Of a stretch of DNA of 11,350 nucleotides, positions 254-9,038 are shown piece by piece. Position numbers and translations under genes: made by a program. The stretch lies in the NCBI GenBank assembly GCA_012838715.1, contig DUOR01000430.1, forward strand, positions 1 through 11,350. Direction: 5' to 3'. The notes under the pieces are model-generated. The model searched no databases, was not told where the DNA came from, and saw nothing but the letters and a program-made list of their open reading frames with translations. Source of the stretch: Actinomycetales bacterium (lineage in GTDB: Bacteria; Actinomycetota; Actinomycetes; Mycobacteriales; Mycobacteriaceae). The stretch's first letter is position 1. Each line of letters opens with the position of its first letter.

Positions 254-1525
254 CTACTGGGCGAACTTCTCGGCGGCCGCCAGCAGCACGCAGGTGGCCA
301 CGCCATCCATCGCGACCTCGAGCTCCTCAATCGGCGGCAGCGACGGCGCCAGGCGGATGTTGCGGTCGTTCGGGTCATCCTTCAGCGGGAACGACGAACC
401 GGAACCCGTCAGCGCGATGCCGGCGTCCTTGGCCAGCTCAATCACGCGGCGCGCGGTGCCGTCGACGACGTCCAGCGACACGAAGTAACCGCCCTGCGGA
501 CGGGTCCACTCGGCCACGCCGTACTCGCCCAGGCGCTTGTCCAGCACCTCCAGCACGCGGTCGAACTTCGGCGCCAGCGACTCCTTGTGGCGGCGCATCT
601 GCTCGCGCACGCCCTCGGCGTCGCCGAAGAACTTGGCGTGCGCCAGCTGGTTCACCTTGTTGGGGCCGATGCCGCGGAAATTCGCGTGGCCCAGGTAATC
701 CGCGATGTTGCTTTCCGACGACGCGAAGAAGGACACGCCCGCACCGGCGAACGTGATCTTCGACGTCGACGCGAACTCCCACACGCGGTTCGGGTTGCCG
801 GCCTCTGCGGCCCAGGTGACCACCGGGTGGTTCACCGGGAACTCGTCGGTCAGCGTGTGCACCATGTACGCGTTGTCCCAAATGAGGCGGAAATCCGGTG
901 CGGCCGTCGGCATCTCGACCAGACGACGGCACACCTCCTCCGAGTACGTCACACCCGACGGGTTGGAGAACACCGGCACGTTCCACATGCCCTTGATCTG
1001 CGGGTCCGCCGCGACCAGGCGCTCAATCATGTCCATGTCCGGGCCATCCTCGTTGAGGGGGACCGGAATCATCTCGATGCCGAAGTGCTCCGTGATGGAG
1101 AAGTGGCGGTCGTAACCCGGGACCGGGCACAGCCACTTCAGCACCGGCTCCTCGTTCCACGGGCGCTCCGAGTCGACCGTGCCGAACTGCATCGCCCAGC
1201 TGACCAGGTCGAACTGGATGTTCAGCGACGACGCGTCACCGGCGATGACGTTCTCCACCGGCAGGCCCAGCAGCTCCGCCCACAGCGCGCGGATCTCCGT
1301 GATGCCCTTCAGGTTGCCGTAATTGCGGGTGTCCTCGCCCTCCGCCGTCTTGTAATCCGGCGCCGGCAGACCGAGCAGCGCATTCGCGTAATCCAGCTGC
1401 TCCGACGACGGCTTGCCGCGGGTCAGGTTCAACGCCAGCGAACGGGCCTTCAGAGCCTCGTACTCCTTGGCGAAGTCCTCCTTGAGCTGCGCGAGCTCGT
1501 GGGAATCGTAGGCATCCAGCTTCAT
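254..1525 (-). CDS. aspT: Aspartate aminotransferase, AspT type (class Ic)
   Basis: This is a PLP-dependent fold-type I enzyme expected to interconvert aspartate/2-oxoglutarate and oxaloacetate/glutamate in the cytosol, the main aspartate source for amino acid and nucleotide synthesis. The 423 residues are full length. PLP-site residues are visible: NPSG at 188-191, D217 with Y220 (WDNAY), the Schiff-base lysine K256 in [11 protein letters not shown], and the substrate carboxylate arginine R391 in NIRLAPS. The sequence belongs to the actinobacterial group typified by C. glutamicum AspT and M. tuberculosis Rv3722c, which are distant from E. coli AspC. The ATG at 1525 has a GAAGGAAG ribosome-binding site 6 nt upstream. 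SRP RNA lies upstream on the same strand. One copy of the repeated word GCTTTCCGACG falls inside the gene at residues 269-272 (SSES). Confidence 0.93.
710..720 (+). repeat. Copy 1 of the 11-bp word GCTTTCCGACG (in aspT)
   Basis: Exact copy inside aspT. Read in the gene it gives TCG GAA AGC (Ser-Glu-Ser), shortly after the PLP-lysine segment. See the finding on the whole family. Confidence 0.85.
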
Positions 1526-1880
1526 GGCAAGCTTCCTTCGTCATCGACTGCGTGCGAGGGTGCGAACGGCCGGCAAATGGTGTTCCCATCGCATTCCCGG
1601 GTGCGCCCGAAAGCGCCCCCGCGGAAGTTGCCGGCCCGCGGCCCGCGCGGTTGTTGTCACCAACGAAGGATAGAGCACTCCCCGCGCCCCGCGCAGAATG
1701 GCGGTTTCCCCGTTGTGGCGTGCGGCGTTGGCCGGGAGTTACGGCCCCTGGCCGGGGGCGATGGCCGCGCTTCCCCTGGGCTCTTCCCGGCGCTTGCCCG
1801 GGCTCTTCCCGTGCTTCCCCCGCTTGCCGACGCCCAGCCAACCGCCGATTCCGCCGCCTGCCCCGCCCCGAGACATAAGG
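1526..1880. other. aspT leader region without a gene
   Basis: No convincing open frame occurs here; the long frames crossing it are antisense or shadow frames. On the minus strand TATCCT (1672-1667) fits the actinobacterial TANNNT -10 and would give an aspT leader of roughly 135 nt, but I see no good -35 (TGCGCG at 17 bp), so this promoter is weakly supported. aspT might instead be transcribed with ffs. A short direct repeat, GGGCTCTTCCCG at 1778-1789 and 1800-1811, lies in a CTTCCC-rich tract of no recognised role. Confidence 0.4.
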
Positions 1881-1966
1881 GGACCCCACGCACCCGCCAG
1901 AGCCCGCTGACCCTTGCTGCATTCCTGCCCTGGGGGAGTTCACGAGATGGACGCCGCGTGGGGTCC
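1881..1966 (-). ncRNA. ffs: 4.5S signal recognition particle RNA
   Basis: The minus strand carries the conserved SRP RNA apical domain: GTGAACTCCCCCAGGGC, then AGGAATGCAGCAAGGG, i.e. the GGAA tetraloop closed by the Ffh-binding symmetric and asymmetric loops. The two ends pair perfectly over 11 bp (GGACCCCACGC at 1881-1891 with GCGTGGGGTCC at 1956-1966), giving the hairpin of about 86 nt expected for the short bacterial form. The RNA binds Ffh and FtsY to deliver nascent membrane and secretory proteins to the Sec translocon. Mature ends may extend a few bases beyond the stem. Its place beside aspT agrees with the gene order I know from corynebacteria and mycobacteria. I see no T-rich terminator on the aspT side. 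Confidence 0.93.
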
Positions 1967-1973
1967 GGACCAC

Positions 1974-2004
1974 ACCATAACCCAGCGGGCCCGCGCGACG
2001 CCAA
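1974..2004 (-). promoter_or_regulatory. Promoter of ffs
   Basis: A -10 TATGGT (1979-1974) lies 7 nt before the first base of the SRP RNA outer stem at 1966, exactly where a start site should be. A -35-like TTGGCG (2004-1999) is 19 bp away, slightly long. The fit between predicted start and RNA end is the main support. Confidence 0.65.
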
Positions 2005-7267: not shown

Positions 7268-7307
7268 GCGAGCGGCATTTTTGGCACGCGAAGGTCGCCG
7301 CAGGGGT

Positions 7308-7399
7308 GCGTCGGAATGCGCGCGTGGGCGTCGGAAAGCGCGTGCGGACGGCGCCGGATCGCCGCCCGGCGCGTCGGAAAGCACGTGCGGACGGTGCCG
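7308..7399. repeat. Direct repeats built on the GCTTTCCGACG word (copies 6 and 7)
   Basis: A 29-bp unit beginning GCGTCGGAAAGC occurs at 7328-7356 and 7371-7399 with 27 of 29 bases identical. A shorter relative (GCGTCGGAATGC) is at 7308-7319. Each 29-bp unit contains an exact minus-strand GCTTTCCGACG (7339-7329, 7382-7372) followed by CGTGCGGACGG. They fill the gap between the copZ operators and the amn stop. I see no hairpin of terminator quality and no credible frame. Confidence 0.75.
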
Positions 7400-7421
7400 C
7401 CGCCGGCGCATGCACGCCGAA

Positions 7422-9038
7422 CTAGCGGAAGGCGACCTCGCCGACGGGGCGGCGCAGCTTGCGGGAGTGCAGCTCGTCGGGGTTGGAGGACATCGCCTCG
7501 CAGGCCCGCACGGCCGCCATCAGGTGCTCGACCTTCGATGCGGCGTAGAAGGCGCGGGCGGCCTTCGGCAGCTTCGGCTGGTCGTGCAGCGGCATGTCCG
7601 AAATGCTCAGCAACGCGCCGTAGGGCACGCGGTAGCGGTAGCCGTTGGCGGCGATGGTGGCGGACTCCATCTCCACGCCGATGGCCGTCGATTTCTGCAG
7701 GTCACGGTAAATGTCCGACTGCGCCCGCCACTCCCAGTTCCGGTCGGCGGTGGACAGCACGGTGCCGGTGCGCAGGCGCTTGCGCAGCGCCTCCCGGTCC
7801 AGCCCCGACACGCGCCGCAGTGCCGCGGCCACCGCGACCTGCACCTCCGCGATCGGCGGAATCGGCTTCTCCAGCGGCACCACCGCGTCGAGCACTCCGT
7901 CGGCCCGGTCGTAGCCGTTGGCCAGGATCATGTCGCCGATGCGCATGCGGCCGTCGAGCCCCGCGCAATGCCCGACCATCATCCAGCAGTGCGGCCGCAG
8001 CACCGCCAGGCAATCGGTGATGGTCTTCGCGTTCGACGGGCCGACGCCGATGTCGATGATGGTCACGCCCAGCCCGTCCTCCCGCACCAGGTGGTACGCG
8101 GGCATCTGCGAAGCCGACGCGTAGCGGATGCACTCCGCCGGGTCCGGCACCTCCCCGATGGGGAACACCTGCTCGCCCGGGCACACGAGATGCGTGTAGG
8201 GGCTTTCCGACGTCTCCTCCCCCGCGAGCGTCTCGGGATCCCCCGACTGGCCCATGTCGGTGTCCTCCGACGGATCCCCGCCCCGCGCGGCGCTGCCGGA
8301 CCCGCCGGGGGTCAGGCCGTCCGGCCCGGGGTGGCCGGTGCCCAGCGTCGCCGCGTACTCCAGGAACACGTCCGTGTGCAGGCGGTAGTTGGTGAACAGC
8401 ACGAAGCGCTGGATGTGCTCCGCGTGCGAACCGGTGTAATGCTCCAGCCGCTGCAGCGCCAGGTCGACGCGCGGGGCGGCGAACAGGCTCAGCGGTTTGA
8501 CCGGCAGGTTGAGGAAGTCGGTCTCGCCGTCGGCGATGACGTCGTCGACGAACGCGGAATCGACCGGCGTGAACGCCCGATCGATGAGCGTGAACTGCAG
8601 GGCGTCCAGGCCCTCCCGCACCTTCGTCTCGTCGAAGCCGTGCGCCAGGCGCAGCGGAATCGGCGTGTCGCTGACCAGCACCTCCACTTCCCCGCCGTGG
8701 CTTTCCAGCAGGTCCTCGATTTGCTCGATGAGGTAGCGGCGGAACAGCCGCGGCCGCGCGACCGTGGTGGCGTAGATGCCCGGCCGGTCGACGAACCCGT
8801 GCGACAGCGCCGGATCGACGTCACGGACGACGTCGACGGTGAACCGCAGCTCCGGGTAGCAGGCGTGGACGTCCACCGGCGGTTCCCCGTCGGCGGCGAC
8901 CTCCACGCACGCGGTGTCGTAGCACTCCACCAGGTAGGCGGCGTTCGCCTCGTAAATCTCGATGAGCCTGTCGACGGCCGCCACGGGGTCCGTGTAGAAA
9001 TCCCCGCTGCCGGTCGTGGTCCCGAACGGTGCGCCCAC
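7422..9038 (-). CDS. amn: AMP nucleosidase
   Basis: This cytosolic enzyme hydrolyses AMP to adenine and ribose 5-phosphate and so adjusts adenylate pools. The 538 residues align by eye along E. coli Amn. The N-terminal regulatory part (about 15-230) has RPRLFRRYL, RLEHYTG and FVLFTNY. The C-terminal nucleosidase part (about 280-538) has VGPSNAKTITD, VGHCAGLDGRM, RLRTGTV, the ribose-binding GVEMESATIAANGYR (454-468) and the family end LHSRKLR. A low-complexity insert (about 233-277), absent from E. coli Amn, joins the two parts. The GTG at 9038 is preferred because GGGGGAG lies 5 nt upstream; an in-frame GTG at 9044 overlaps the stop of the upstream gene. The longer upstream frame is Arg-rich and overlaps that gene. 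It is coupled to the flavodoxin-like gene. Confidence 0.95.
   Translation of the reverse strand: MGAPFGTTTGSGDFYTDPVAAVDRLIEIYEANAAYLVECYDTACVEVAADGEPPVDVHACYPELRFTVDVVRDVDPALSHGFVDRPGIYATTVARPRLFRRYLIEQIEDLLESHGGEVEVLVSDTPIPLRLAHGFDETKVREGLDALQFTLIDRAFTPVDSAFVDDVIADGETDFLNLPVKPLSLFAAPRVDLALQRLEHYTGSHAEHIQRFVLFTNYRLHTDVFLEYAATLGTGHPGPDGLTPGGSGSAARGGDPSEDTDMGQSGDPETLAGEETSESPYTHLVCPGEQVFPIGEVPDPAECIRYASASQMPAYHLVREDGLGVTIIDIGVGPSNAKTITDCLAVLRPHCWMMVGHCAGLDGRMRIGDMILANGYDRADGVLDAVVPLEKPIPPIAEVQVAVAAALRRVSGLDREALRKRLRTGTVLSTADRNWEWRAQSDIYRDLQKSTAIGVEMESATIAANGYRYRVPYGALLSISDMPLHDQPKLPKAARAFYAASKVEHLMAAVRACEAMSSNPDELHSRKLRRPVGEVAFR
8202..8212 (+). repeat. Copy 8 of GCTTTCCGACG (in amn insert)
   Basis: Exact copy encoding Ser-Glu-Ser at about residues 277-279 of Amn, at the edge of the linker insert that E. 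coli Amn lacks. Confidence 0.85.

Follow-up and report, generated by a model that had tools for sequence, protein, structure and literature searches.

A bipartite word with a one-base dialect, dense across Corynebacterium, as a candidate self-DNA recognition sequence

The 11,350-nt stretch of actinobacterial DNA analysed here (the window; contig DUOR01000430.1 of assembly GCA_012838715.1) carries the 11-base word GCTTTCCGACG in eight exact copies, which raises the question of what maintains such a word in a genome. The original prediction, made from the window, was that the lineage may use the word for selective DNA uptake, or as a site for a nucleoid, recombination or modification protein. 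To our knowledge, sequence-specific words marking self-DNA are known from two proteobacterial families only, the Pasteurellaceae and the Neisseriaceae. The window makes up one of the 480 contigs of its assembly (2.38 Mb, 88% complete) and its genus is Corynebacterium, with C. halotolerans standing first among the 80 loci listed for its P-type ATPase (77% identity). We know of no natural transformation in this genus.

Across the window's assembly GCTTTCCGACG has 256 + 243 = 499 exact copies, against a single copy of the reversed word. A 215-kb sample of this genome (G000), made up of the window and 20 contigs chosen from the hit list, holds 72 copies where a third-order Markov model expects 0.28. 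Single-base variants of the word are rare in this sample except at positions 5 and 6, and GCTTGCCGACG reaches 60 copies against 0.6 expected. The true unit is GCTTNNCGACG, i.e. GCTT-NN-CGACG, with nine fixed bases and a free two-base centre (dialect 1 in the following). It occurs 731 + 713 = 1,444 times in the genome, one per 1.65 kb, compared with 25 + 45 for its reversed form. The 215-kb sample contains 180 of these sites, a density that is biased upward because the contigs were picked from the hit list, the whole-genome counts being unaffected. The flanks in this sample exhibit a mild pyrimidine preference, an avoidance of G at -1 and a three-base periodicity, and no extended consensus beyond GCTTNNCGACG is seen in the flanking columns. 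At a few places the word forms short tandem arrays. The test set for the prediction was a copy number in the hundreds to thousands, well in excess of a Markov expectation, with copies spread over the genome and present in sister species, and this is what the counts returned.

In the window GCTTNNCGACG has 16 sites, as follows.

94..104, minus strand: GCTTTACGACG, dialect-1 site
710..720, plus strand: GCTTTCCGACG in the Asp_aminotransf gene, antisense, Ser-Glu-Ser
1822..1832, plus strand: GCTTGCCGACG, dialect-1 site
3272..3282, plus strand: GCTTTCCGACG between Pfam-supported genes
3734..3744, plus strand: GCTTTCCGACG just beyond the 3′ end of the Trns_repr_metal (CsoR-type) gene
3866..3876, minus strand: GCTTCTCGACG in the Trns_repr_metal gene
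4705..4715, plus strand: GCTTTGCGACG in the P-type ATPase gene
5101..5111, minus strand: GCTTGCCGACG in the P-type ATPase gene
5224..5234, minus strand: GCTTTCCGACG in the P-type ATPase gene, sense, Leu-Ser-Asp
6341..6351, plus strand: GCTTTCCGACG in the P-type ATPase gene, antisense, Ser-Glu-Ser
7329..7339, minus strand: GCTTTCCGACG upstream of the HMA domain, small open reading frame (ORF)
7372..7382, minus strand: GCTTTCCGACG upstream of the HMA domain, small ORF
8202..8212, plus strand: GCTTTCCGACG in the AMNp_N/PNP_UDP_1 (AMP nucleosidase-like) gene, antisense, Ser-Glu-Ser
9736..9746, minus strand: GCTTCCCGACG in the tRNA-synt_1c gene
10324..10334, minus strand: GCTTTACGACG in the tRNA-synt_1c gene
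10950..10960, minus strand: GCTTGACGACG, dialect-1 site

The eight exact copies lie at the positions and on the strands first reported for them, and the Ser-Glu-Ser readings given for 710, 6341 and 8202 match the translations. When up to one mismatch is allowed, GCTTTCCGACG has 15 matches in the window, against a mean of 0.46 and a maximum of 3 in dinucleotide shuffles. Seven of these are one-mismatch copies (94, 1822, 4705, 5101, 7309, 9736 and 10324); the four relatives named originally are all among them, the number being three short. As members of the word, 94, 4705 and 10324 hold, whereas 7309 (GCATTCCGACG) is not of the GCTTNNCGACG form, and the earlier list lacked 1822, 3866, 5101, 9736 and 10950, which fit it. 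Of the eight exact copies, those at 710, 5224, 6341 and 8202 are inside genes with a Pfam match, two (3272 and 3734) are between such genes, and those at 7329 and 7372 precede the HMA domain in a 162-aa ORF whose true start is probably later than called.

The genus was surveyed in 242 Corynebacterium genomes, labelled with G numbers. Dialect 1 has 280–1,964 copies in 169 of them and 8–210 in the other 73; a simple high/low split of these counts was dropped, as some low genomes use GCTTNNCGATG, a form that differs by one base (dialect 2) and was found on re-examining the low-count genomes. It occurs 34 times in 89 kb of G006 (2.4 expected) and 38 times in 87 kb of G103, G254 and G122 together (2.2 expected). 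At least 490 copies are present in 14 of the 242 genomes, 13 of which use dialect 2 alone (490–1,184 copies) and retain only 26–97 copies of dialect 1. The fourteenth, G119, bears both (352 copies of dialect 1 and 1,337 of dialect 2), and is possibly a species in mid-switch or one with a relaxed reader. Weak dialect 2 (159–223 copies) is found in four of the 73 low genomes (G123, G127, G214 and G236), and dialect-1 genomes other than G119 have at most 165 copies of it (G233). The classes therefore comprise 169 genomes with dialect 1 (G119 having both), 13 with dialect 2 alone, four with weak dialect 2 and 56 with neither, among which G183 and G250 hold about 200 dialect-1 copies each. The common core GCTTNNCGA-G is kept in both dialects, with C or T at position 10. 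In G131, GCGTNNCGACG is enriched as well (107 against 10.1 expected) and ACTTNNCGACG mildly so (24 against 5.1); these extra forms suggest a relaxed or double dialect. GCTCNNCGACG runs at about 2–6 times expectation in several genomes (e.g. 56 against 15.5 in G000). No convincing near-dialect was seen in G200, G124, G110, G197 and G014 (29 kb each) or in G010 (69 kb). In its 29 kb the word-less G197 has a TGTGG-type pattern that recurs and may be a tandem repeat.

On a 20-genome tree of the proteins around comEC (midpoint-rooted, with several deeper nodes weak) the low-copy state is patchy, as expected of a dispensable, changeable trait, and the dialect-2 genome G006 is sister to the dialect-1 genome G130 with full support. 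Outside the genus, GCTTNNCGAYG is found at 0.25 to about 2 times control in 120 genomes from other genera of the order, and GCTTNNCGACG reaches at most 1.6 times control in 21 named actinobacteria of other genera; C. halotolerans has 950 + 943 copies against 50 + 57 for the control. The comparison with sister species proposed at the outset yields a word that is shared by most of the genus and near chance in the other genera examined. The finding is real, genus-wide and unreported as far as we searched: among the open-licence papers listed no report was found for the word, for uptake sequences of Corynebacterium or Actinobacteria, for Chi or for overrepresented motifs, and the main text of a spaced-motif scan of 569 genomes neither shows the word nor contains 'CGACG' (PMC5217627).

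By a simple purpose-made ORF caller, 76–90% of sites fall within called genes (212/246 in G131, 206/229 in G056 and 137/180 in G000), intergenic sites being enriched about twofold in G000 and not in G131 or G056. About half of the sites are read in the sense frame G-CTT-NNC-GAC-G (121/246 in G131, 39/80 in G153, 56/112 in G149 and 108/239 in G056), and 46 of 72 dialect-2 sites are in the corresponding frame; further copies are antisense, in another frame or intergenic. In the sense frame NN occupies codon positions 1 and 2 of the middle residue, and the dialect change turns GAC into GAT, both Asp, a silence that may be the reason why this particular dialect arose. The sites are moreover conserved. 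G149 and G150, 98.6% identical over 183 kb, have 110 of 114 compared sites in common, and the fixed bases differ at 4 of 1,026 positions, as opposed to 93 of 6,833 in the 30-bp flanks (Fisher p = 0.006), i.e. they change 3.5 times less.

The mobile DNA examined is poor in the word. In G153, which we take to be C. glutamicum ATCC 13032, a 400-kb region was chosen as the expected place of the CGP3 prophage, and it exhibits a gap of 224,241 bp with no site, while the other 176 kb hold 68 sites. The composition of this gap, presumably the CGP3 prophage itself, predicts 1.39 sites, so that it is a gap without enrichment and is not depleted below chance. Of the 49 gap ORFs with 330 aa or more, 18 were searched, and 11 of these have matches in PHROG families, among them helicases, a RecJ-like exonuclease, tail proteins and an endolysin. 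The phages P1201 (2 sites in 70.6 kb) and BFK20 (1 in 42 kb) and the plasmids pCGR1 (2 in 49 kb, with 3 dialect-2 sites in addition) and pCE2 (0 in 23.7 kb) together have 5 sites in 185 kb, and the scarcity as a whole is drawn from these four records and the single chromosome region. No Corynebacterium plasmid record was among the 40 matches listed for a P-type ATPase query, and a 20-kb piece of the phage-like stretch of G153 matched no phage record.

How the sites are oriented was followed in 400 kb of G056, taken as twenty pieces of 20 kb each from the first 1.92 Mb (of 2.77 Mb), with the position of the origin not located. Its 229 sites show no skew (116 forward, 113 reverse) and no long polar stretch as for FtsK-orienting polar sequences (KOPS), in agreement with the original statement that this is not a polar KOPS-type word. 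In the 169 genomes the strand totals are closer than binomial, with a mean (f-r)^2/(f+r) of 0.60 where 1 is expected and 30 control-word pairs give 1.37; no p-value is attached to this balance because the genomes are related. In spacing samples from five genomes (G000, G056, G131, G149 and G153), the strand alternates between neighbouring sites 474 of 786 times against a shuffle mean of 404, none of 2,000 shuffles reaching 474 (a plain binomial test against one half gives p = 4e-9, which is overstated). Same-strand pairs 60–1,500 bp apart number 244, where uniform placement predicts 347 and strand shuffles give 314 (0/2,000 as low), whereas opposite-strand pairs at these distances number 399 against 369 expected. 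By genome, the shuffle p of the same-strand deficit is 0.0005 in both G056 and G000, 0.049 in G131, 0.08 in G153 and 0.10 (not significant) in G149. Alternation in G153 has p 0.0065, and same-strand pairs in G131 are not below uniform (111 vs 110), only below shuffles, with p 0.0075 when the GCGT form is added. Pairs closer than 60 bases are convergent in 12 cases and divergent in 9. The per-strand spacing suggests that sites are read on one strand, each serving DNA on one side. Some convergent pairs in G131 enclose a hairpin resembling a transcription terminator.

On balance, we lean slightly towards GCTTNNCGACG and its dialect GCTTNNCGATG being a self-DNA recognition word of Corynebacterium that works like the DNA uptake sequences (DUS) and uptake signal sequences (USS) of the two proteobacterial families. 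A competence component with sequence specificity (Tad-type pilus, ComEA, ComEC) would prefer word-bearing DNA, and kin DNA would be imported and recombined while phage or plasmid DNA would not. Biased import would then spread the word through the genome wherever proteins allow it, most often as G-CTT-NNC-GAC-G, in which NN would leave the middle residue largely free and the change from GAC to GAT would be silent, and each site would be read from one strand and serve DNA on one side. For the fuller version, a bipartite self-word with a dialect that admits kin and excludes phage and plasmid DNA when read by a directional single-strand import (or import-coupled recombination) machine, the chances appear close to even, if marginally short of it.

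The machinery that such uptake would need is widespread. ComEC is present in 241 of 242 genomes (no match in G236), and in gene-presence surveys of 80 genomes DprA, TadA (79 over the cut-off) and the ComEA domain HHH_3 were matched in all 80. In 20 genomes examined for their loci, comEC and the genes of the TadA locus are at their expected places in word-bearing and word-less genomes alike, TadZ, TadB and TadC being the names we presume for the genes beside TadA, and comEA is at its locus in all but G117, which has an HHH_3 match in a 247-aa frame just outside the examined stretch. Presence or absence of ComEC, TadA, DprA, HHH_3, RecC or PDDEXK_1 was rejected as the cause of the word, as none separates the classes. 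Genomes lacking a strong word show scattered decay (ComEC unmatched in G236 and with an in-frame stop in G195, DprA weakly matched in G124 and G187, ComEA with a stop in G106); it was not used as evidence because ComEC also looks broken in the word-bearing G001, G112 and G271 and G198 has no visible ComEA. Elsewhere Tad-type pili do serve DNA uptake, as described in reports on tadA/comEA of Micrococcus luteus (PMC6667448) and on Liberibacter (PMC8513845).

Several observations nevertheless weigh against uptake. The comEA-comEC and Tad loci are found in word-less genomes too, and the failure of ComEC, DprA and TadA to separate the classes counts in the same direction; competence genes, for which the original prediction proposed to look, are indeed present as com and Tad genes, but also in word-less species, and are not diagnostic. 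Most best HHH_3 matches are in a longer protein (about 750–950 aa) that is not ComEA, and ComEA was not seen in the dialect-2 genome G198, whose sole HHH_3 match is in a 789-aa frame. ComEC appears as two weak matches in G001, G112 and G271, and in the window's own assembly, 88% complete, TadA matches weakly and stays under the cut-off. No protein stood out as a receptor candidate, the open-licence literature searched yielded no account of natural transformation in Corynebacterium, and the per-strand spacing is not explained by orientation-blind uptake. Selective uptake, as originally proposed, is in keeping with the dialect, the scarcity in mobile DNA and the conservation; it is our leading inference and not a result because competence genes occur also in word-less species and an orientation-blind process leaves the spacing unexplained.

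Two other explanations address the spacing directly. Same-strand sites that are too evenly spaced, with opposite-strand sites that are not, are as for a directional site, and the word might therefore be a Chi-like site controlling recombination, which an AdnAB-type helicase-nuclease would read on one strand and which would mark self while word-less phage DNA is degraded. The word is indeed scarce in the phage and plasmid DNA examined, and the genus has large PDDEXK_1 proteins (many frames about 1,000–1,240 aa) that may be AdnAB, an assignment of our own. These proteins, however, occur in 80 of 80 genomes, word-bearing or not, and RecC (PF04257) in none of the 80. Known Chi words have 5–8 bases and in E. 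coli are co-oriented with replication, whereas here nine bases are fixed and the G056 sample shows no skew. A house-keeping enzyme would not be expected to change its word by one base, almost completely, from one species to a close relative; we regard a Chi-like site as rather unlikely. Slightly lower still we place a genus-specific nucleoid or chromosome-organising protein whose sites need regular, oriented spacing. The even spacing on each strand and the strand totals of the 169 genomes agree with such a protein, but the word is absent from about 56 of 242 species in a state that is patchy on the tree, 76–90% of its sites are within called genes, 224 kb of the G153 chromosome are free of sites, and no skew runs along the G056 sample.

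The coding context and the repeats invite two further explanations, both of which we consider highly improbable. The word could reflect a common Leu-X-Asp peptide or a codon-usage effect, given that about half of the sites read sense CTT-NNC-GAC; this is contradicted by the antisense, other-frame and intergenic copies, and the enrichment is absent in other genera. In the five larger samples (G000, G056, G131, G149 and G153) the synonymous forms GCTANNCGACG and GCTGNNCGACG are at 0 to about 3 times expectation and GCTCNNCGACG is at about 2–4 times, against some 17–30 for the word itself. Equally, the word could be the conserved core of a dispersed mobile repeat resembling a miniature inverted-repeat transposable element, to which the short tandem arrays at a few places would correspond, but this is contradicted by flanks that have no extended consensus, only the mild -1 preference and the three-base periodicity, and most sites are inside genes.

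Should the self-DNA word prove true, it would be the first such DNA language known to us outside the Pasteurellaceae and Neisseriaceae, a third and independent case, in Actinomycetota. With closely related species that differ in dialect, and with lines naturally free of the word, the origin of such languages, their changes and their role as barriers between species could be studied. The self-DNA word would further point to a hidden route of natural transformation in C. glutamicum, an industrial workhorse, and its kin, for which transforming DNA should then bear the word. Were a recombination or chromosome protein responsible, the genus would possess a hitherto unrecognised directional genome mark, with hundreds to nearly 2,000 sites.

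The window has other features around these sites. A copper-type cluster at 3762-7415 consists of a CsoR-like repressor, an HMA-containing P-type ATPase and a small HMA protein. Adjoining the 3′ end of the CsoR-type gene is a tandem array of a 21-base unit (3629-3733; four overlapping 42-base copies at 21-base spacing), and AACTCGGGATCA / TGATCCCGAGTT, another repeat spread over the genome, makes up an inverted repeat of 31 bp (97% complementary) at 3144-3236, its 12-base core occurring 21 times in the 215 kb of the window's genome.

Among known systems, the Chi sites of RecBCD/AddAB are likewise enriched in a cell's own DNA and read on one strand; compared with them the word is longer, showed no skew in the G056 sample, has a dialect and is patchy in its presence, in a genus where RecC was found in 0/80 genomes. 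From the USS of Pasteurellaceae it differs in sequence and in phylum. The uptake of Haemophilus USS is reported as independent of orientation (PMC1939737), whereas avoidance here is limited to the same strand, a difference that again speaks against uptake. With the DUS of Neisseriaceae it shares its shortness, a copy number in the hundreds to thousands both inside and outside genes, species dialects built on a conserved core and the existence of word-less relatives (PMC3630211). An atypical distribution of DUS in integrated mobile DNA has been used to find such elements (PMC7371117). Unlike DUS, the word belongs to Actinomycetota and not Betaproteobacteria, is bipartite with a free two-base centre, and has an orientation-specific even spacing; no ComP-like receptor was found, and it is a candidate member of the DUS/USS class. 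Dense, patchy, conserved, divided into dialects and scarce in the mobile DNA examined, the word appears to work most like a DNA uptake sequence, and in its one-strand spacing it is also Chi-like.

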